Below, one piece after another: positions 4,173-23,877 of a stretch of 42,218 bases of DNA (position 1 is the first letter of the stretch; every line of letters begins with the position of its first letter). The stretch is from Nitrospiria bacterium (GTDB lineage Bacteria > Nitrospirota > Nitrospiria > DASWJH01). The stretch lies in contig DASWJH010000073.1 of assembly GCA_036397255.1 (NCBI GenBank), positions 1 to 42,218 on the forward strand. Direction: 5' to 3'. A model generated the notes under the pieces. It saw only the letters and a program-made list of their open reading frames with translations, was not told the origin of the DNA and made no database searches. The translations under genes were made by a program, and so were the position numbers.

Positions 4173-5810
4173 TTAGTACATGTCTCCGCCCATTCCGCCC
4201 ATTCCACCACCAGGCATCGGAGGCATTTTTTGTTCTTTTTCTGGTATCTCAGCCACCATCACTTCTGTGGTTAACATTAAAGATGCCACGCTGGCGGCAT
4301 TCTGAAGTGCGCACCGGGCCACTTTTGTAGGATCAATGATTCCAGCCTTGAGCATATCCACATATTCCTCCGCTGCTGCATCAAATCCTATTGTGTCTTT
4401 CTCTTTTTTGGCCCGTTCCACCACCACAGAACCTTCCAACCCCGCATTGTGGACAATTTGCCGAATCGGCTCCTCTAAACTTCTTTTAATAATATTCACG
4501 CCTATCTGTTGATCCCCTTCCAATTTCATCTTATCCAGTGCGGGAATACACCTCAAGAGAGCAATTCCTCCACCGGGGACAATTCCTTCTTCCACGGCCG
4601 CTTTTGTTGCATGAAGGGCATCCTCAACGCGCGCCTTTTTCTCCTTCATTTCGGTCTCAGTGGCAGCTCCTACATTAATCACCGCAACACCACCCACAAT
4701 TTTGGCAAGTCTTTCTTGGAGCTTCTCCCGGTCATAATCCGAAGTGGTCTCCTCAACCTGAGCCTTGAGCTGCTTAACTCTACCTTGAATTTTGCTGGAT
4801 TCTCCCGCACCTTCAATAATGGTGGTATTATCCTTATCGATGGTGACGCGTTTGGCGCGACCCAAATCGCCAATCTTAACGTTTTCCAATTTTAACCCAA
4901 GGTCTTCAGAGATGACTTGTCCACCGGTTAAAACGGCAATATCCTCTAACATGGCTTTTCGCCGATCTCCAAACCCAGGAGCTTTCACAGCTGCACAGGC
5001 CAGGGTTCCTCGAAGTTTGTTTACCACCAAAGTGGCTAGGGCTTCCCCTTCGACTTCTTCCGCAATGATCACCAAAGGTTTACCCATCTTTGCAATCTGC
5101 TCTAGAACGGGCAAAAGATCCTTCATGGTACTGATCTTTTTTTCATTAATTAAAATGAACACGTCCTCGAGAGAAATCTCCATCCTTTCTGGGTCCGTGA
5201 TAAAATACGGAGATAAATAACCCCGGTCAAACTGCATCCCCTCAACCACATCCAAGGAGGTGCTCATACTTTTAGCTTCCTCAACGGTAATCACACCGTC
5301 TTTTCCAACCTTCTCCATGGCCTCTGCAATTAAATCTCCAATGGTCGAATCGGTATTGGCAGAAATAGTTCCGATTTGAGCAATTTCTTTTTTGTCTTGG
5401 CAGGGCTTGCTTTGCTTTTTCAACTCTTCCACCACCAGCTCCACGGCCTTATCGATTCCCCGCTTCACTTCCATGGCATTGGCCCCTGCAGATACATTCT
5501 TGGACCCCTCTCGAAAAATCGCATGGGCTAAAACGGTGGCCGTGGTGGTACCATCCCCAGCAATATCGCTGGTTTTACTCGCCACTTCACGGACCAACTG
5601 TGCACCCATATTTTCATAAGGGTCTTTTAATTCAATTTCTTTTGCCACAGTAACGCCGTCTTTGGTTATCAGAGGAGCTCCAAATTTTTTATCCAAAATA
5701 GCGTTTCGCCCTTTGGGGCCCAGTGTGGCCTTTACGGCGTCGGTCAATTGCGTCATTCCCCTTAGAATGGCCGCTCTTGCTTCATCTCGAAAAACGATCT
5801 GCTTTGCCAT
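4173..5810 (-). CDS. groEL: Chaperonin GroEL (Hsp60)
   Basis: Sixty-kilodalton chaperonin subunit that forms the double-ring ATP-driven folding chamber in the cytoplasm together with GroES. The length of 545 residues is normal. Visible hallmarks are [11 protein letters not shown] (residues 27-37), the nucleotide site GDGTTT at 85-90, the [12 protein letters not shown] segment near 400, and the C-terminal Gly-Met tail [12 protein letters not shown]. The start has an AAGGAGGAAG Shine-Dalgarno 7-8 bases upstream. The gene lies 54 bp after groES and shares its promoter and CIRCE operator, with a strong terminator downstream. No key residue appears to be missing. Confidence 0.99.
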
Positions 5811-5864
5811 TGATTCTTCCTCCTTGCTAAACTTTGGTCAAAAAAGGTTAATAAACTTTTATCT

Positions 5865-6170
5865 CTATTTATCAAAGACCCCAAGAATATCTTCCTCTTT
5901 CAAGATGAGATATTCCACATTATCGATGTTGATCTTTGACCCCGAATATTTATCAAAGAGGATGACATCCCCAACTTTCACCCCTTTTACCTCATTTCCA
6001 ATAGACTCGATTTTTCCTTTTTGAGGTTTCTCCTTGGCTGCGTCTGGGATGTAAATTCCTCCCGCGGTTTTCTCCAATTCTTCTGTATAGCTGACAAATA
6101 CACGGTCCTTCAAAGGTTTAAACTTCATAGAAACTGCTCCTTTCTGCTTTGCAACGGCTTCTGCTGCCAT
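5865..6170 (-). CDS. groES: Co-chaperonin GroES (Hsp10)
   Basis: Ten-kilodalton co-chaperonin that caps the GroEL chamber. The canonical domain begins MKFKPLKDRV, includes the mobile loop around EELEKTAGGIYIPD, and ends YLILKEEDILGVFD. Two starts are plausible. The ATG at 6170 has a perfect AGGAGG seven bases upstream and would add 14 residues (MAAEAVAKQKGAVS). The internal ATG at 6128 matches the usual family start and has GGAG eight bases upstream. The longer form is listed because its ribosome site is the stronger. The gene heads the groES-groEL operon, 93 bp below a CIRCE operator. Confidence 0.97.
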   Translation of the reverse strand: MAAEAVAKQKGAVSMKFKPLKDRVFVSYTEELEKTAGGIYIPDAAKEKPQKGKIESIGNEVKGVKVGDVILFDKYSGSKINIDNVEYLILKEEDILGVFDK

Positions 6171-6262: not shown

Positions 6263-6289
6263 TTAGCACTCCCTGAAAGCGAGTGCTAA
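6263..6289 (-). promoter_or_regulatory. CIRCE operator (HrcA binding site)
   Basis: A perfect inverted repeat, TTAGCACTC, nine bases, GAGTGCTAA, which is the consensus CIRCE element. It begins at the -10 box of the groES promoter, so bound HrcA repressor would block transcription start. hrcA itself is not in the window. Confidence 0.97.
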
Positions 6290-6462: not shown

Positions 6463-8094
6463 TTAAGGACTGGTAATGAGAATACTATAAGTCCCTAAAC
6501 GCCCTGCGGAAGGGGGTGCATTCGGAGAAGATTTGACCCGAACATAAAATAGGCCCGTTTGGGATGGTGTAAATACAATTTCTGAAGAAAGGGTTGTTTG
6601 ATCATTGATAGGACAAAAAGGTTTACGCACCTGGCCACAGGAAGGGTCGTAACTGCTGCCGTTTCTATTATCATTGGTATTATTTGGATCAGGGGGAATA
6701 AGCAACACACCATTGCTATCCAGTATCTCTAAATAGGTATCCGCCCCATTTTTTAAATCCGTTGTCCCAATGGTATATTTCTGTCCAGATATACCATCAA
6801 AGGCTATATAATCAACATCCCCATTGGGATAAATGGTGTGGTTTTCCCGCGGGGATCCTAAATTAAATATTCTCGAGGAATTAGGAGTATCATCATTTTC
6901 AAACGAATCCTCAAAAAAATCCATTTTAAATTCTTTGGTAATGTTTTCCATTTCTGTCAGTGAGTTATGACCCTGAAGGAACCATCCCTCCCAAAAATCC
7001 TCCATACTGACGTTTCGAACCCCCGTCTGCGTCATATAATTGGTAATCACATCCCATATAGGACTGAGCCCGGTATTCAATCCATCAAAGGGTTCATTTT
7101 CGACATTATTATCAAAAATATCCCATAAGCTTTTTGCAACAGCCAGTTCATTGGTTGTATATACCTCATCATCCACCACCGAAGAAGGGGTTGATTCCAA
7201 ATCCACCAGCAGTGAGAATCCATTGTTTGGCGGATCTCCGCCGGTTACATCCAAAATGAAACGGTCATTCCTGATTGCACCCGAAATAAAAGAAGCCCAG
7301 CCTTCTGACCAGGACAATCGGATATCTAGTGTATTGTCAACGGGGCTATGTGGCCCCCCAGGAGAGGAATCTTTTGAATAAACTTCGGACATAAAATGGC
7401 CGAATTCATGATATATTACCCCGGTATCATATTCATCTGGGTCGGCCCCTCCATTAATCTGTATAAAAGCCCCATTAGGGTCCATCGAAAAACCGGTACC
7501 GGGATCAGAACCCACTGTCCATAAGGCTCTCAACCCGGGGGGTATTGTCCCTGTTAACTGCCTGGCAAAATCAACACCTCTCTCGAAGGTATCCAAAATT
7601 TTATACGCACCGGAAATTCCATCGTTAACGGTGGCATTCAGATTTTTTGTAAAACTAGGAGCATCCTGACTATTAAAAGGATTTGATTTTACGGAATAAA
7701 TGGTCGTATCGCCTAGGTTTTTTACCCGGAGGTTGTAATCGGGATGATTGGTTTTTGCCAAAACCCGCACATACACATCCGTTTCAGGAGCACCAAAGTC
7801 GATACAGAAAAAACCGGAACCGTTGGTTGCCCCAGAAGCTATGACCGACCCATTTGAGTTTCTTACGACCTCCACATCTGCAAAACGAATGGGCTGGTTA
7901 TTTCTTACCCCCGTAAATCCGTTAAAATCAATGACCCTGTTTTCAAAAGTGGCTGTACCTGAAACCGTAGTACCACTGGATTGGCAGATCTGCTCACTCC
8001 CCTTACTTCCCCCGCAACCCCAAAGATTGAGGCTCAGTATTAGAAATAAAATGAAACCCAACTTTGAACCTTCAAACCCGGTTTTTTGTATCAT
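6463..8094 (-). CDS. Secreted lipoprotein zinc metalloprotease with PPC-like C-terminal domain
   Basis: Predicted exported gluzincin-type peptidase. Using the frame opening at 8184, there is a signal peptide with lipobox LNLWGC (Cys57), then a CarboxypepD_reg-like beta domain (about 70-145). The catalytic region has HEFGH (His259, Glu260, His263) and a downstream SEGWASF whose Glu294 fits the third zinc ligand of gluzincins. The last 120 residues (NGDVDYIAF ... GLFYVRVKSS ... YSILI) resemble a pre-peptidase C-terminal (PPC) domain. The ATG at 8094 gives a normal signal peptide, but its GGAGG is about 23 bases away, so the start is uncertain. It overlaps or abuts the small lipoprotein gene and follows gspK, which suggests export by this type II system. 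That last point is inference. Confidence 0.75.
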   Translation of the reverse strand: MIQKTGFEGSKLGFILFLILSLNLWGCGGSKGSEQICQSSGTTVSGTATFENRVIDFNGFTGVRNNQPIRFADVEVVRNSNGSVIASGATNGSGFFCIDFGAPETDVYVRVLAKTNHPDYNLRVKNLGDTTIYSVKSNPFNSQDAPSFTKNLNATVNDGISGAYKILDTFERGVDFARQLTGTIPPGLRALWTVGSDPGTGFSMDPNGAFIQINGGADPDEYDTGVIYHEFGHFMSEVYSKDSSPGGPHSPVDNTLDIRLSWSEGWASFISGAIRNDRFILDVTGGDPPNNGFSLLVDLESTPSSVVDDEVYTTNELAVAKSLWDIFDNNVENEPFDGLNTGLSPIWDVITNYMTQTGVRNVSMEDFWEGWFLQGHNSLTEMENITKEFKMDFFEDSFENDDTPNSSRIFNLGSPRENHTIYPNGDVDYIAFDGISGQKYTIGTTDLKNGADTYLEILDSNGVLLIPPDPNNTNDNRNGSSYDPSCGQVRKPFCPINDQTTLSSEIVFTPSQTGLFYVRVKSSPNAPPSAGRLGTYSILITSP

Positions 8095-8104
8095 TAAAAA
8101 AGCT

Positions 8105-8623
8105 TTATTGATTTGGGACCTCCCCTGGAAACTCAATGACATCCTCATTAAACCGGTTTTTTCTAATTTGGGGTTGGACCCCATTTTTCTGTTTGATTCC
8201 GCCTGGGGATGAAATGTTCACCAACGCACTTTTGGTCATTTTTGTACCATCCGGAAATTCAACACTGGCAAAGCCAAAAATCTGATGGTTTAATTCTTTC
8301 GATACCATCACCCCAATTTGAATTATTTTTTCTTCCCCTTTTTTCAAGGGTCCAGACCACATTTTTTCTCCCTGGGTTATCTGAACTTCTTTGGGGATTT
8401 CGACTCTGATCCTCACCATAGGAGCATCGATTTGCGGGGTCACCCGGGCTGTTAAAACCATCTCATCCCCATTTTGAGATGAGGAGGCCAGATCCATTGA
8501 AAAATTTATAGGAACAGTGGGCTTGGCCATAGCCGGATCCCCGTTTAAGGTTCCACAGGCATTCAAAAAAATTAAAAACCCGAAAACCAAGGGTGCCTTC
8601 AAACATTTCTTTAAATTCTCCAT
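8105..8623 (-). CDS. Small lipoprotein of unknown function
   Basis: A 172-residue protein with a clear lipoprotein signal: basic start MENLKKCLK, hydrophobic core, and LNACG lipobox with Cys23. The mature part is an all-beta domain with DEMVLTARVTPQIDAPMVRIRVEIP and GEEKIIQIGVMV, looking like an immunoglobulin-type or DUF-like adhesion fold. I do not recognise a family. It has an AGGAGGAG Shine-Dalgarno. It sits 60 bp after gspK and immediately before the metalloprotease gene in the same direction, so it may assist, tether or inhibit that enzyme. No catalytic motif is visible. Confidence 0.65.
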   Translation of the reverse strand: MENLKKCLKAPLVFGFLIFLNACGTLNGDPAMAKPTVPINFSMDLASSSQNGDEMVLTARVTPQIDAPMVRIRVEIPKEVQITQGEKMWSGPLKKGEEKIIQIGVMVSKELNHQIFGFASVEFPDGTKMTKSALVNISSPGGIKQKNGVQPQIRKNRFNEDVIEFPGEVPNQ

Positions 8624-8683: not shown

Positions 8684-9739
8684 TTATTCCACCCGCCAAT
8701 ATAGAATTTCAGGGTTTCCATTTCTTTGAACCACCGCATGAACCTTTTTTTGAATATCATTGACAATTCCTTGGGAATGAACAGAGAAAAAATCGCTCGT
8801 GAATCCAAACACCTCCTTGAACCCCAGCCCACTTCTCCCCCCCCCGATATCGGTCCCTAAAAAAAGGCCTTCACCTATGATTGCGTTCATATCTTCTTTA
8901 AAATCTCCATCGCTATCAAAAGAACGGTTTTCCATTATTTGTTGTGCTTTTTTTGATGTAATTTCATCGGAAAACGCCTGTATGACAACCGCATCAGCAG
9001 TATTCACATTGATTAGAATGTTTTTTCCCCCCTTTTTCGGAATCGGATAGACCGTTAAATAAGGGGTTACTTTTTGGTAAATTTCCTCTTTCATTCCCCG
9101 GATTTGCCGGAGTTCCGAGAGATGGGTCAAAAAATCATTTTTAGTTTGGTAAGGTTGTTCAAGGTTGGCATAATACCCATCTTCAGCCCCAAACAAGGTC
9201 TCATTATCAGAATCAATCCAATCTACAATACTTTCACCTATTTCAACCGCATCATTGGGATCAATATTCAAAAGCTCAAAAAGTCGCATCAGTATCTCAA
9301 CGCGTTTTTCATCTTTAACCTTATTCTCTCCAGAAAACTTAACCACTGTATTTACGTTAAATTTACCCGCCTCATCCCCAATTTCTGCCACAATAAGGCC
9401 ATCTCCCAAGGGGTAAGGAGGAAAGGGCGTGGCCCAGACTTCATCAAAACCGTCATATTTAGGACTCCGTTTGGAATCTTCCTTTAATAACGCACGGGCC
9501 GCCGCTACCCCGGATTTGGCAATGTAGGTAGCCTTAAAATCGTCCCGTAGGTTTCCAACCATTCTCAAATCCCTTCTAACCGTGGAATCCAGGCCCAAAA
9601 TAAGGGTCACCAAAAGGGTCACCACCAAAAGGGTCATCAGTAGGGCAACTCCCCTCTGGTTGCCCAAAATGGAACAATGGCCCCCAACTTTTCTTAAGTA
9701 AAAATGACCTATTTTTCCCCATCCTTTCGAGTTTTTCAC
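8684..9739 (-). CDS. gspK: Type II secretion minor pseudopilin GspK
   Basis: Largest minor pseudopilin, placed at the tip of the T2SS pseudopilus with GspI and GspJ. The prepilin site is NQRG before VALLMTLLVVTLLVTLILG. As is known for GspK, there is no Glu at position 5 of the mature protein. The soluble part has ATYIAKSGVAAARALLKEDS, IGDEAGKFNVN, DWIDSDNE and the helix-hairpin-like VNVNTAD region, all typical of GspK. The first codon is GTG at 9739, giving a long leader of about 30 residues. A TTG shortly before GNQRG would give a leader of normal length. It is unusually the last gene of the operon, 142 bp after gspM, with a hairpin in that gap. Confidence 0.92.
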   Translation of the reverse strand: MKNSKGWGKIGHFYLRKVGGHCSILGNQRGVALLMTLLVVTLLVTLILGLDSTVRRDLRMVGNLRDDFKATYIAKSGVAAARALLKEDSKRSPKYDGFDEVWATPFPPYPLGDGLIVAEIGDEAGKFNVNTVVKFSGENKVKDEKRVEILMRLFELLNIDPNDAVEIGESIVDWIDSDNETLFGAEDGYYANLEQPYQTKNDFLTHLSELRQIRGMKEEIYQKVTPYLTVYPIPKKGGKNILINVNTADAVVIQAFSDEITSKKAQQIMENRSFDSDGDFKEDMNAIIGEGLFLGTDIGGGRSGLGFKEVFGFTSDFFSVHSQGIVNDIQKKVHAVVQRNGNPEILYWRVE

Positions 9740-12101: not shown

Positions 12102-13031
12102 TTACATGGTTAACAGGGAAGATAAGTCCAAGCCGTTGATTGACCATTGAACATTTCTTAAAGAACCTTTTCCGATAATGCGAAGGCGCTCCCCATTTCT
12201 GACAGAGGGAATCATAAGAGAGATCAATTCATTTTCTTTAAGATCCCCCTTTAAAAGTGCCTTTAAATCAAGGTTCAAAAGGCTCGTAGAAAAAGGGTTC
12301 CTTAAAAGAAGGCTTCCCGTTCCTTCTAAATCCAACAAATCACCTTTCACACGAATTTCTTCTAAGGTTCCCCTTCCTCTGCCAACTGTCACCCGGCTGG
12401 ACCCTTGTGAGATAAATAGAGTTTGAATGGGAAAACCATGATAGGAGAAATCCCGAACGGAAAATTCTTCAAGGTTGAAATATGCAGACCCATCCCCTTT
12501 TAACACCTCTTCATTTTCCCAATCATGATCCCATTCTAAACCCATTTTACCCCGTACCGTCGCCTCGGGAAGGAACCCATTGAGAAAAGACAACTCTAAC
12601 CCTTGACCTATTCCTGAGAAATGGATCCTGGAAGAATGACGGCCTGGATTGACCTGAAGTTTTCCTTTTACAAGGCCTTCCATGGCTTTCATTGAAAACG
12701 ATCCATGAACTTGGCCGAAAAATAAAGGAAGCACAGCCACTCTGCATTTCAACTCCTTGATAAAAAGGGCTTCTTCCGAAAGAGGCAAGCGAACACTGAC
12801 GGTAGCCCGTTCCCATTGGAACCCCATCGGAAAGAGAAATGATCTTTCCTTCAACGAAAGGTGAATGGGAGTCCTTTCCTCAACCCATTCCACCAAAATC
12901 TTTTCAATTCGGTCATAAGGAAATGTCAGCACCAGAAACAGCAGAATGGCTAAAAAAGTATAAAGGGCATACCCAAAAGCAAGACCAATTTGAAATTTTT
13001 TTGTTTGAAACCATTGAATAATTCGAAACAT
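12102..13031 (-). CDS. gspN: Type II secretion protein GspN
   Basis: GspN-type protein: one N-terminal membrane helix (about residues 17-40, GYALYTFLAILLFLVLTF) followed by YDRIEKILVEWVE and a long beta-rich periplasmic region resembling AsmA/LptC-like folds. Length 309 fits the family found in Desulfobacterota and related T2SS loci. Its role is not settled; it is not essential in several systems. It begins 1 bp after the gspJ stop codon. In the usual order gspN closes the operon, while here it lies between gspJ and gspL. The call is based on topology, the N-terminal motif and position. Confidence 0.8.
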   Translation of the reverse strand: MFRIIQWFQTKKFQIGLAFGYALYTFLAILLFLVLTFPYDRIEKILVEWVEERTPIHLSLKERSFLFPMGFQWERATVSVRLPLSEEALFIKELKCRVAVLPLFFGQVHGSFSMKAMEGLVKGKLQVNPGRHSSRIHFSGIGQGLELSFLNGFLPEATVRGKMGLEWDHDWENEEVLKGDGSAYFNLEEFSVRDFSYHGFPIQTLFISQGSSRVTVGRGRGTLEEIRVKGDLLDLEGTGSLLLRNPFSTSLLNLDLKALLKGDLKENELISLMIPSVRNGERLRIIGKGSLRNVQWSINGLDLSSLLTM

Positions 13032-20595: not shown

Positions 20596-21501
20596 TTAAC
20601 GAATTTCGTAATCAAAAGAAGTTTTTATGTTATTTCGAACCAAATCCAAAGAAATACTTGTCTCATCTTTGAGTTGTTGAAAAATCTTTAAAAAACTCTG
20701 GGGATCCTTGATATCGATTCCATTGATTCTCTGCAGAATATCACCGTTTTTTAATCCAATTCTTTCATAGATGCTATTGGGCACGATTGAAATAATTCTG
20801 AAGCCGTTGGCCTTACCCTGGGTAAAATTGGGAATAATCCTGGCTTTTGTTAAAAGTTGGGGGAGATTTTCAAAGGCCTGTGAGACCTCCCGTTTATCTA
20901 ACACCCAATTGTTGGGGGCAACGGTTCGGATACCCGTGTTTTCTCCTTCCTCTAATTTTGCATTTTCCATTTGGGATGAACCTTCCTCGAGCTCTTCCTC
21001 AAATAGAAGGAGTAATTCCTCTCTTCCTCCTCTTAAAAGGGTGGCCTTTTCTCGATCAACGTAAACCAGCTTCGCCCCTTCCACCACCATGTCATTGATT
21101 CGGTATAATTCCTGGTTCTTTGTTTTTTCATCCTGAATCACAGCAAAACTTTTTGCGGAATCCCACCCTACTACAGTCCCAATTAAACGAATATTAAGAG
21201 GGGTCAATTCTATTTCGGGCGGGTTATCAGGAATAGAGGCAATCTCAGTGTCTTTTTTCCCCCGAAGTTCCCGACTGAAGATATTTCCCTCCAAAATAGC
21301 TTGGGAATACTGTTGGAAAGGTTTACGAATTTGGGAAGGGGAAGCCAGGGAATTATCCTTTATTTTGGAGTGAACAACAAGTTTTTCTCCAATAAAAAAC
21401 CCAATTAAATCAGCGACTATGAAGGAGAAAAGGGTCAATAAAATGAAATGGGAAAAAACAAAAAAACCTTTCCCGGGTTTAAAACCTCCTCTTATTCCCA
21501 T
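20596..21501 (-). CDS. gspC: Type II secretion protein GspC with PDZ domain
   Basis: Inner-membrane protein that couples the platform to the secretin and helps select cargo. The ATG at 21501 is preferred (MGIRGGFKPG) with GGAAGGA in front; a TTG six codons upstream is unlikely. One membrane helix lies at about 16-42. The homology region follows (LNIRLIGTVVGWDSAKSFAVIQDE, then YRINDMVVEGAKLVYVDREKATL). The C-terminal PDZ domain is at about 220-300, with FRIISIVPNSIYERIGLKNGDILQRINGI. It is the first gene of the operon, about 160 bp below its promoter. Confidence 0.93.
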   Translation of the reverse strand: MGIRGGFKPGKGFFVFSHFILLTLFSFIVADLIGFFIGEKLVVHSKIKDNSLASPSQIRKPFQQYSQAILEGNIFSRELRGKKDTEIASIPDNPPEIELTPLNIRLIGTVVGWDSAKSFAVIQDEKTKNQELYRINDMVVEGAKLVYVDREKATLLRGGREELLLLFEEELEEGSSQMENAKLEEGENTGIRTVAPNNWVLDKREVSQAFENLPQLLTKARIIPNFTQGKANGFRIISIVPNSIYERIGLKNGDILQRINGIDIKDPQSFLKIFQQLKDETSISLDLVRNNIKTSFDYEIR

Positions 21502-21551
21502 AGTTCCTTCCTTACCCAAAAATAACGATGAAATTCTTCACACAAAAAGAA

Positions 21552-22491: not shown

Positions 22492-23829
22492 TTAAGTTGT
22501 GCTTGTTGTAGAAGTGGTAGTCGTTGTGGTTGTGGTGGTGGTTGAGGTGGTGGTCGATGTCGTCGTGGTGGTGGTTGAGGTGGTGGTCGATGTCGTCGTG
22601 GTGGTGGTTGAGGTGGTAGTCGATGTTGTCGTGGTGGTGGTTGAGGTGGTGGTCGATGTCGTCGTGGTGGTGGTTGAGGTGGTGGTCGATGTCGTCGTGG
22701 TAGTGGTTGAGGTGGTGGTCGATGTCGTCGTGGTAGTGGTTGAGGTGGTGGTCGATGTCGTCGTGGTGGTGGTTGAGGTGGTGGTCGATGTCATCGTGGT
22801 TGAAGTAGTGGGCAAGGTGGTTGTTGCAGAAGTAGTTGAAGTGGTGGGTGAGGTGGTTGTCGCAGAAGTGGTTGTTGTGGAACCTGATATTGTCGTGGTG
22901 GTGGAAGTGGATCCTAAAGTCGTGGTTGGGACTAATGTAGTTGTCGTGGTGGTGGTTGAGGGAAGAGGATTAAGAACGTTTGAACTCAGAAAGTTAGTGA
23001 TGGAATTAGTTAAGTCTGCCTTTAAGGCATCAGGGGATAAATTCACCCCGCTTCCACTCACCAACTCTATTGAGGAACCATAAACCTGCCCGTCAAAATT
23101 TCCATCCGTAATATCCAGCTCAAGGGCCTCCAGCAAATCCAATACCGTAAAATTGCTAAATCCGGGATTGGCAGAACCAATATCAAACGCCTGTTGCGAC
23201 AGACCCAGGATAATTAAACCGTATTGTGTTGATGGATCCGTAAAATCAATGGGATTGGATAAAGACACATTGGGGATTATGTTGGTTATATTAAGGTTGA
23301 TCAAATTCACACCGGAGACCTGAATATGTTGACTGCTCATTTCCTGATTGGCGGAGGCAATGGCGGAGGAGGCAGAATTGCCATCTAAAATTTTAAAATC
23401 GGCTAAAATGCATCCTAAGGTGGTATAGGGAGTAATGGCCACATTGGATCTGGTTTCTCCGGAATTTAGGGGGTCAATACAGGTTCTCAGAGGATTTCGC
23501 CCTGCAAGGTCCAAAAGGGAACCCGTCACTTCATCTACAAAATTTCCACTGTTCAAATTCAATTCCATCAGACCGGTGGCACCCCCAATCGACAAGAAAT
23601 AATTTCCGCTGGAGTCGGTTAGACCTTGAACAATCGGGGTAGGTCCTCTTTGGCCATCGGGTGCAATATTCAAAGCATTGACCAAACCATTATCCACCGC
23701 TCCTTTGGTTACGGTCCCTGATATTGAACCTCTTGCCCCACCCCCGCCTCCCTCATCATCCCCCCCACACCCAAAAACCCCTATAAAAAGGGAAACAACC
23801 AACAAGGTTAGGATCTGTTTAAACCGTTT
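22492..23829 (-). CDS. Lipoprotein with long C-terminal Thr/Ser repeat tail
   Basis: Exported lipoprotein with the lipobox GVFGC followed by a Gly/Asp linker. It has a carboxypeptidase-regulatory-like beta domain (GSISGTVTKGAVDNGLVNAL, DSSGNYFLSIGG), a helical mid-region (SAIASANQEMSS, LIILGLSQQAFDIG), and then about 150 residues made almost only of Thr and Ser. The tail is an 11-residue repeat, TTTTTTSTTTS, encoded by a 33-bp tandem repeat, and the protein simply ends in it. The TTG at 23829 with GAGG upstream gives a compact signal peptide. The frame also opens at an ATG at 23877 that lacks a ribosome site. I do not recognise a function; surface display or a glycosylated stalk is possible. 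Confidence 0.7.
   Translation of the reverse strand, partial: KRFKQILTLLVVSLFIGVFGCGGDDEGGGGGARGSISGTVTKGAVDNGLVNALNIAPDGQRGPTPIVQGLTDSSGNYFLSIGGATGLMELNLNSGNFVDEVTGSLLDLAGRNPLRTCIDPLNSGETRSNVAITPYTTLGCILADFKILDGNSASSAIASANQEMSSQHIQVSGVNLINLNITNIIPNVSLSNPIDFTDPSTQYGLIILGLSQQAFDIGSANPGFSNFTVLDLLEALELDITDGNFDGQVYGSSIELVSGSGVNLSPDALKADLTNSITNFLSSNVLNPLPSTTTTTTTLVPTTTLGSTSTTTTISGSTTTTSATTTSPTTSTTSATTTLPTTSTTMTSTTTSTTTTTTSTTTSTTTTTTSTTTSTTTTTTSTTTSTTTTTTSTTTSTTTTTTSTTTSTTTTTTSTTTSTTTTTTSTTTSTTTTTTTTTTSTTSTT
22523..22795. repeat. 33-bp tandem repeat, about 8 copies
   Basis: The core GAGGTGGTGGTCGAT recurs eight times at exactly 33-bp spacing between about 22544 and 22790, with only a few third-position changes (for example GTA for GTG, GTT for GTC). 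The unit is a multiple of three and encodes 11 residues of the Thr/Ser tail on the minus strand. Copy number is likely to vary by slippage or recombination. Confidence 0.9.
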
Positions 23830-23877
23830 CAACGGATATTTTCCTCTTCTTTTTACTTCTGGTCCCGGGCCAAGCAT

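Follow-up and report, generated by a model that had tools for sequence, protein, structure and literature searches.

The window analysed here is a stretch of 42,218 nucleotides from a Nitrospiria bacterium (GenBank assembly GCA_036397255.1, contig DASWJH010000073.1), and it comprises an entire 42-kb contig of a 3.35-Mb genome. On its minus strand, an operon for a type II secretion system (T2SS) ends in gspK, which is followed by two co-directional genes, the first for a small beta-sandwich protein and the second for a lipoprotein with the motifs of a zinc protease. We lean towards the view that the two form a conserved T2SS cargo module, in which a surface-anchored lipoprotein protease is accompanied by a dedicated small partner. 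The pair recurs in related genomes, the lipobox of the protease is conserved, and linkage to T2SS genes is seen in two phyla, at opposite ends of the gsp operon.

The gene pair downstream of gspK

Both open reading frames (ORFs) of the pair lie directly after gspK at the end of the T2SS operon, where a preliminary description of this DNA had placed them. The gspC-K run extends from 20596-21519 (the gspC end) down to gspK at 8684-9739 and, read back from the pair, has the order gspK, M, L, N, J, I, H, G, F, E, D and C; gspK, M, L and N were checked with family models, and the remaining genes were named by their order and by the matches of related loci. The small gene starts 60 bases past gspK. 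The longest ORF of the protease (573 amino acids, from 8184) overlaps the small gene; judged from the sequence, the probable start is ATG 8094, 10 bases past the small-gene stop, which would give a protein of 543 amino acids with a lipoprotein signal ending in LWG-Cys. The features of the pair and of the two gsp genes that matter most here are as follows.

6463..8094, minus strand: lipoprotein zinc protease, 543 amino acids (model with predicted local distance difference test, pLDDT, 90.2 and predicted template modelling score, pTM, 0.89)
8014..8094, minus strand: signal peptide and lipobox LWG-Cys27, then the G/S-rich stretch GGSKGSE (Cys27 conserved; sorting motif 5/7)
6919..7959, minus strand: thermolysin-fold catalytic region, residues 46-392, beginning soon after the lipid anchor (structural match)
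7396..7410, minus strand: predicted HEFGH zinc-binding motif with His229, Glu230 and His233 (invariant residues)
7297..7308, minus strand: SEGW motif with Glu264, the candidate third zinc ligand (S263, E264 and G265 invariant)
6466..6909, minus strand: PPC or collagen-binding-type beta domain, residues 396-543 (structural match, and Pfam in relatives)
8105..8623, minus strand: small protein, 172 amino acids (Shine-Dalgarno-like GGAGGAG just before ATG 8623)
8555..8623, minus strand: signal with lipobox LNA-Cys23 (lipobox in 6/52 small proteins)
8201..8518, minus strand: immunoglobulin-like (Ig-like) beta sandwich, residues 36-141 (model pLDDT 84.5)
8129..8143, minus strand: conserved C-terminal peptide, DVIEF in the window (strict pattern)
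8684..9739, minus strand: gspK, directly upstream of the pair (NF037980, 218.5 bits, cut-off 130)
12102..13031, minus strand: gspN (T2SS_GspN_Lepto, 132.8 bits, cut-off 50)

A predicted lipid-anchored protease with a thermolysin-type fold

Two alignments were used to assess conservation, one of 22 protease sequences with 33-45% identity and a broader one of 53 sequences from several phyla. Eight of the 30 loci considered for the first were left out: L007 and L018 (both split over two frames), L011 (a near copy of L009), and the partial sequences L021, L024, L026, L027 and L028. L007, which also has no lipobox at the chosen start, and L018 come from genomes G019 and G050, respectively, and their proteases are either frameshifted or misassembled. 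Cys27 is invariant in all 22 rows of the first alignment and is kept in at least 90% of the 53. His229, Glu230, His233 and Glu264 are invariant in every row of both, and in the model the HEFGH and SEGW motifs lie on two predicted helices (224-240 and 258-275). These are the residues that had been proposed as the zinc site under the numbers His259, His263 and Glu294; the choice of residues stands, and the numbering shifts with the start at ATG 8094. In M36 enzymes the glutamate motif takes the form EGW.

Residues 46-392 of the model match aureolysin and thermolysin with Z-scores of 19.9-20.6 and a root-mean-square deviation (rmsd) of 2.9-3.6 over 257-267 aligned residues, at 8-11% identity; the aureolysin match has Z 20.5-20.6 and rmsd 2.9 over 257 residues. 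M36 structures match less well (Z 15.1). The protease is thus predicted to be a clan MA gluzincin with a two-lobed thermolysin-like fold, in line with the gluzincin-like enzyme that the preliminary description had suspected. The PPC-type domain that it had proposed is likewise borne out: residues 396-542 match the collagen-binding/PPC domain of collagenase (ColG CBD, Z 11.4), PF04151 (PPC) is found at E 0.01 in 28 of the 53 proteases, with the window protein falling below the cut-off at E 0.014. A C-terminal PPC beta sandwich is thus predicted.

At E 0.01, the Pfam matches among the 53 proteases are PPC in 28, Big_2 in 17 and M36 in 5, and no family spans the whole protein. In many relatives the Big_2 domain sits between the anchor and the catalytic region. 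PF02128 (M36) reaches 3.5e-5 at best in its five proteins and does not match the window protein, and the M4 Pfam families have no match at E 0.01 in either the 22 or the 53 sequences. NCBIfam gave only weak or partial matches to the 22 proteases, among them NF038113 in four (best 8.1e-4). A sequence search of solved structures returned nothing with the single protease and two chance-level matches with a profile.

No propeptide was recognised either, as the FTP and PepSY propeptide models of Pfam have no match at E 0.01 among the 22 and the 53 proteases. Structural matches to mature M4 and M36 enzymes start at residues 44-48, and with Cys27 as the likely mature N-terminus this leaves little room for a propeptide past the anchor.

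A small Ig-like protein with a conserved C-terminal peptide

The model of the small protein shows an Ig-like sandwich, then a linker, and then a short peptide near the C-terminus. Among 52 small proteins, 34 have the pattern (I/V)(I/R/V/L/F)E(F/Y/I) within their last 22 residues, as do 8 of 2012 control ORFs drawn from the same loci; a looser form of the pattern is found in 43/52 and 127/2012, respectively. Structural matches are to generic Ig-like domains (BBSome, TRAP, alpha-2-macroglobulin and complement), with Z up to 11.9 and Foldseek TM-scores by query of at most 0.47 among the 50 matches listed, and because they are generic, no function is read from them. No Pfam family spans the protein at E 0.01 among 42 small proteins.

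The preliminary description had seen a small beta-rich lipoprotein in this gene. Its beta-rich nature is supported by the predicted sandwich. By pattern, 27 of the 52 small proteins have a signal-peptidase-I-like signal, 6 a lipobox (the window protein included) and 19 are unclassified, so that the lipoprotein label fits the window protein, where the lipobox Cys is followed by GTLNGDP (4/7 G/S/N/D), and is not established for its family; the conserved lipoprotein of the pair is the protease.

Conservation of the pair

The class sample consisted of 58 genomes including that of the window, with the protease called at E 0.001 and the small gene at E 0.01. The protease is present in 27 of these genomes. 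The small gene accompanies it in 26 of them and is missing from all 31 genomes that lack the protease, counting presence in the genome regardless of adjacency. A single-protein scan of the genome contigs gave 31 pattern matches and no relatives; an alignment scan yielded 236 relatives, and only the 80 best loci were retained, so that distant members, more often without a partner, are under-sampled. These 80 loci span Nitrospirota, Nitrospinota, Gammaproteobacteria, Planctomycetota and others. Pairs also occur in two named strains, Reinekea blandensis MED297 (L145) and Saccharospirillum salsuginis KCTC 22169 (L154). A small gene lies on the same strand within 1500 bases of the protease in 51 of the 80, upstream in 45 pairs and downstream in 11, and in 8 of the 29 loci without an adjacent small gene the sequence upstream of the protease domain breaks off after about 120 bases or less. 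Like the gene of a dedicated T2SS chaperone, the small gene adjoins that of its putative cargo and is co-directional with it. None of the ORFs in the 80 loci fuses the two proteins. No description of the pair was found in a literature search limited to open-licence PMC papers.

Small-family genes are also found on their own. Loci L218, L219, L220 and L217 have no protease match in the stretch covered. In genomes G042, G017 and G044 such an unpaired gene is accompanied by a pair elsewhere in the genome, and L217 (genome G026) runs into the end of its contig, so that its gene may belong with the L114 protease, from which it would have been split off.

Linkage to type II secretion

Two arrangements link the pair to T2SS genes: in 12 Nitrospirota genomes it follows gspK, and in one gammaproteobacterial family it precedes gspC, at the far end of the operon. 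The order gspK-small gene-protease is found in 8 of the 27 carriers of the class (G000, G002, G011, G015, G016, G019, G025 and G028) and in all four carriers of f14, a family in that phylum. In the gammaproteobacterial family the protease is present in 10 of 13 genomes, and all 10 have a copy before gspC; a small gene can be seen at 8 of these sites, and the contig ends in G073 and G080. At one such locus, L133, the gspC frame could start as early as 8 bases past the protease stop, and its product scores over the GspC cut-off. Several of these genomes hold a further protease copy elsewhere, and at L129, L131, L133, L141 and L252 gspC is preceded by proteases in tandem together with one or two small genes.

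Relative to controls, gspK or gspC stands beside the protease at 17 of the 80 loci and in none of 40 random 20-kb stretches, which were taken from six contigs of Nitrospirota genomes and compared with loci of unequal length, many of them shorter than 20 kb. Any Gsp-like match is found at 21/80 loci and in 3/40 random stretches, with 4 of the 21 judged pilus-type and not counted. These are the GspD- or GspL-like matches of L117, L139, L140 and L161, which were rejected as T2SS links: L117 holds PilM, a secretin and shikimate kinase, that is, a cluster of the pilM-Q/aroK type, and the other three were assigned to this type from their arrangement only.

The expectation that the pair co-occurs with a T2SS in other genomes holds at the genome level, with GspK in 26 of the 27 class genomes that have the protease and 21 of the 31 that do not (Fisher p 0.007). 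In a sample of the phylum, GspK at E 1e-10 was found in 14 of 15 carriers and 110 of 183 others (p 0.011). GspD scores over its cut-off in 26 of 28 genomes with the pair and 14 of 22 with an unpartnered protease (p 0.014; 50 of the 80 loci covered). Many of the pairs are nevertheless found away from gsp genes.

The lipoprotein sorting motif and GspN

The T2SS lipoprotein cargoes InvL and PulA are reported to require GspN, and in Acinetobacter a G/S- or N/D-rich stretch past the lipobox Cys matters for T2SS lipoproteins (available text of PMC12802150). The window protease has such an InvL/PulA-type motif, as positions P2' to P8' read GGSKGSE (5/7 G/S/N/D). Over these seven positions, 44 family lipoproteins have on average 4.70 G/S/N/D residues; for 51 further predicted lipoproteins encoded at the same loci, the mean is 3.51 (Mann-Whitney p 0.005). 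Two gammaproteobacterial members outside the gspC-linked family, L106 and L115, score 6 and 7. GspN is present in all 13 genomes of the gspC-linked family, carriers of the protease or not, and was rejected as a marker of the protease, as it tracks the T2SS as a whole.

Evidence that does not fit

Several observations weigh against a T2SS cargo module, or against an exclusive link to the gsp genes. No gspK is visible beside the protease in 19 of the 27 class carriers, where the loci are short, and many pairs have neighbours other than gsp genes. Ten Manganitrophus-type loci have a non-gsp gene in common upstream of the pair; the two copies examined encode a 2-hydroxyacid dehydrogenase, and we judged the gene to be a metabolic neighbour. 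Genomes G004 and G010 have gsp operons with no pair after gspK, although other genera of their family f5 carry the triple, and the second protease of the window genome (L002/L211) has neither a partner nor a gsp gene within 20 kb. In the phylum sample, GspK over the curated cut-off is found in 11/15 carriers and 88/183 others (p 0.10), and 2 of the 28 genomes with the pair have no GspD over its cut-off. The genomes that share the linkage are related, so that it may represent only two events, and the tests above assume independence. The mirror correlation between protease and small protein (53 pairs, rho 0.47, 0/2000 permutations) is confounded by shared ancestry. With regard to sorting, a motif of at least 4/7 G/S/N/D is found in 30/44 family and 24/51 other lipoproteins, which is not significant (Fisher p 0.061), and in the gspC-linked gammaproteobacterial family the six members that were scored reach only 0-2/7. 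Finally, GspN over its cut-off is widespread in the class (46 of 58 genomes, 26/27 with the protease and 20/31 without).

In the f14 genomes a second protease without a small partner adjoins a secretin gene (L242, L244, L246 and L248), and the gspK-linked pair is also present; L244 lies on the same contig as L117.

A possible mechanism and its alternatives

The presence of GspN in the T2SS of the window, the C-GGSKGSE sequence and the precedents of SslE and CpaA/CpaB, described below, lead us to view the protease as a surface cargo and the small protein as its dedicated partner in the periplasm. The small Ig-like protein would be made first and act in the periplasm. The protease would be exported by Sec, acylated on Cys27, and adopt its thermolysin-type fold with the C-terminal PPC domain. 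The small protein may bind the protease, probably via the conserved C-terminal peptide, and this binding could either help the protease to fold or hold it inactive until export. The adjoining T2SS would then carry the protease to the cell surface, and GspN would see to the handling of a cargo that bears a lipid anchor.

In M4-type enzymes such as LasB the propeptide serves as both chaperone and inhibitor, and since no M4- or M36-type propeptide was recognised here, the small partner may do this job in trans. A fuller version, in which a widespread thermolysin-fold family without a propeptide receives both folding aid and inhibition from a separate Ig-like protein that docks by its C-terminal peptide, the whole being a trans-propeptide system for a dedicated T2SS surface cargo, seems rather unlikely.

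The small protein could instead be mainly an inhibitor that shields the periplasm from the protease rather than a secretion helper, for which emfourin, a co-operonic inhibitor of M4 enzymes, provides a model. No propeptide is recognised that would silence the protease, a plain signal pattern is present in about half of the small proteins (27/52), and the conserved C-terminal peptide (34/52, against 8/2012 control ORFs) could fill the active-site cleft. Against this, the unpartnered paralogue in the window genome (L002/L211) and the four f14 proteases without a nearby partner imply that silence without the small protein must be possible, and inhibition as the main role appears fairly unlikely. 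The small protein might also accompany the protease as another secreted or surface subunit, such as an Ig module that binds substrate, which would suit the generic Ig-like fold and the window protein's own lipobox with the GTLNGDP stretch behind it; however, the short C-terminal peptide is among the best conserved features of the small protein, as would be expected of a docking tail more than of substrate binding, and we hold this role to be improbable.

In a different explanation, the pair may be a periplasmic or outer-membrane lipoprotein protease unit, involved for instance in envelope quality control, with its T2SS linkage a mere operon position. This would account for the many pairs with other neighbours, such as the 2-hydroxyacid dehydrogenase gene, and for the unpartnered copies next to a secretin, given that the one locus examined is a pilM-secretin-aroK type cluster. 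It does not readily explain why two phyla show the linkage, and at either end of the gsp operon, or why nearly all class carriers have GspK. PPC, Big_2 and Ig-like domains are moreover usual in outward-facing proteins, and an envelope unit of this kind seems quite unlikely.

To our knowledge, little is known about T2SS cargoes outside the well-studied proteobacteria. If the cargo module is real, the recurrence of the pair at one or the other end of gsp operons points to a likely cargo for uncultured Nitrospirota and for one gammaproteobacterial family; the pair also bears on how the T2SS recognises lipoprotein cargo, and on whether a thermolysin-fold enzyme can replace its propeptide by a separate partner.

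Neighbouring genes and other features

A related giant gene (about 1600-1770 amino acids when complete) lies directly upstream of the pair at four loci and about 1.8 kb upstream at a fifth, L102; the copy in L145 has Big_5 domains. It is a possible further partner of the pair.

L108, 4177-9015: giant gene
L145, 4124-9448: giant gene
L154, 4266-9263: giant gene
L130, 2-2461: giant gene (partial)
L102, 1696-6483: giant gene

In the window, upstream of gspC and on the same (minus) strand, 22492-23877 encodes a predicted lipoprotein of 461 amino acids that begins C-GGDDEGGGG and has a long Thr/Ser-rich, mucin-like tail. It has no Pfam match at E 0.01 and may be a second T2SS surface lipoprotein. 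At 6263-6289, a perfect CIRCE-type inverted repeat (0 expected in shuffles) lies upstream of groES-groEL-like genes (4173-6170, named by eye).

Comparison with known systems

A T2SS-linked protease with a partner is a known kind of system; neither protein of the present pair is spanned by a Pfam family at E 0.01. The protease shares the two-lobed gluzincin fold and the HExxH motif with a downstream Glu with the M4 (thermolysin, aureolysin, LasB) and M36 (fungalysin) enzymes, among which LasB is itself a T2SS cargo. In contrast to these, the present family has a predicted lipid anchor and a C-terminal PPC domain, no M4 Pfam or FTP/PepSY match and only a weak match to M36.

With InvL and PulA the protease has in common the lipobox, the G/S- or N/D-rich stretch past the Cys, as seen in Acinetobacter cargoes, and GspN in the system (available text of PMC12802150). 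Unlike the protease, InvL and PulA are not proteases, and in the gspC-linked gammaproteobacterial family those members that were scored lack the motif.

Dedicated partners are exemplified by CpaA/CpaB and LipA/LipB of Acinetobacter, in which a T2SS-secreted enzyme is encoded next to a chaperone that is required for its secretion (available text of PMC4713064). The partner gene adjoins the enzyme gene there as it does here, but CpaB and LipB are anchored in the membrane by their N-terminus (PMC4713064), whereas the small Ig-like partner has, by pattern, a plain signal in 27 of 52 cases and a lipobox in 6, with 19 unclassified.

The closest functional counterpart of the protease would be SslE (YghJ) of Escherichia coli, an M60 zinc metalloprotease that is lipid-anchored and transcribed with its T2SS, an arrangement that resembles that of the gammaproteobacterial pair (available text of PMC5012682). 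The M60-like domain of SslE (PMC8881592) differs from the thermolysin fold and PPC domain found here, and no small Ig-like partner is mentioned for SslE in the available text on that protein. By this analogy, the protease of the window would likewise be a surface-anchored T2SS lipoprotein cargo.
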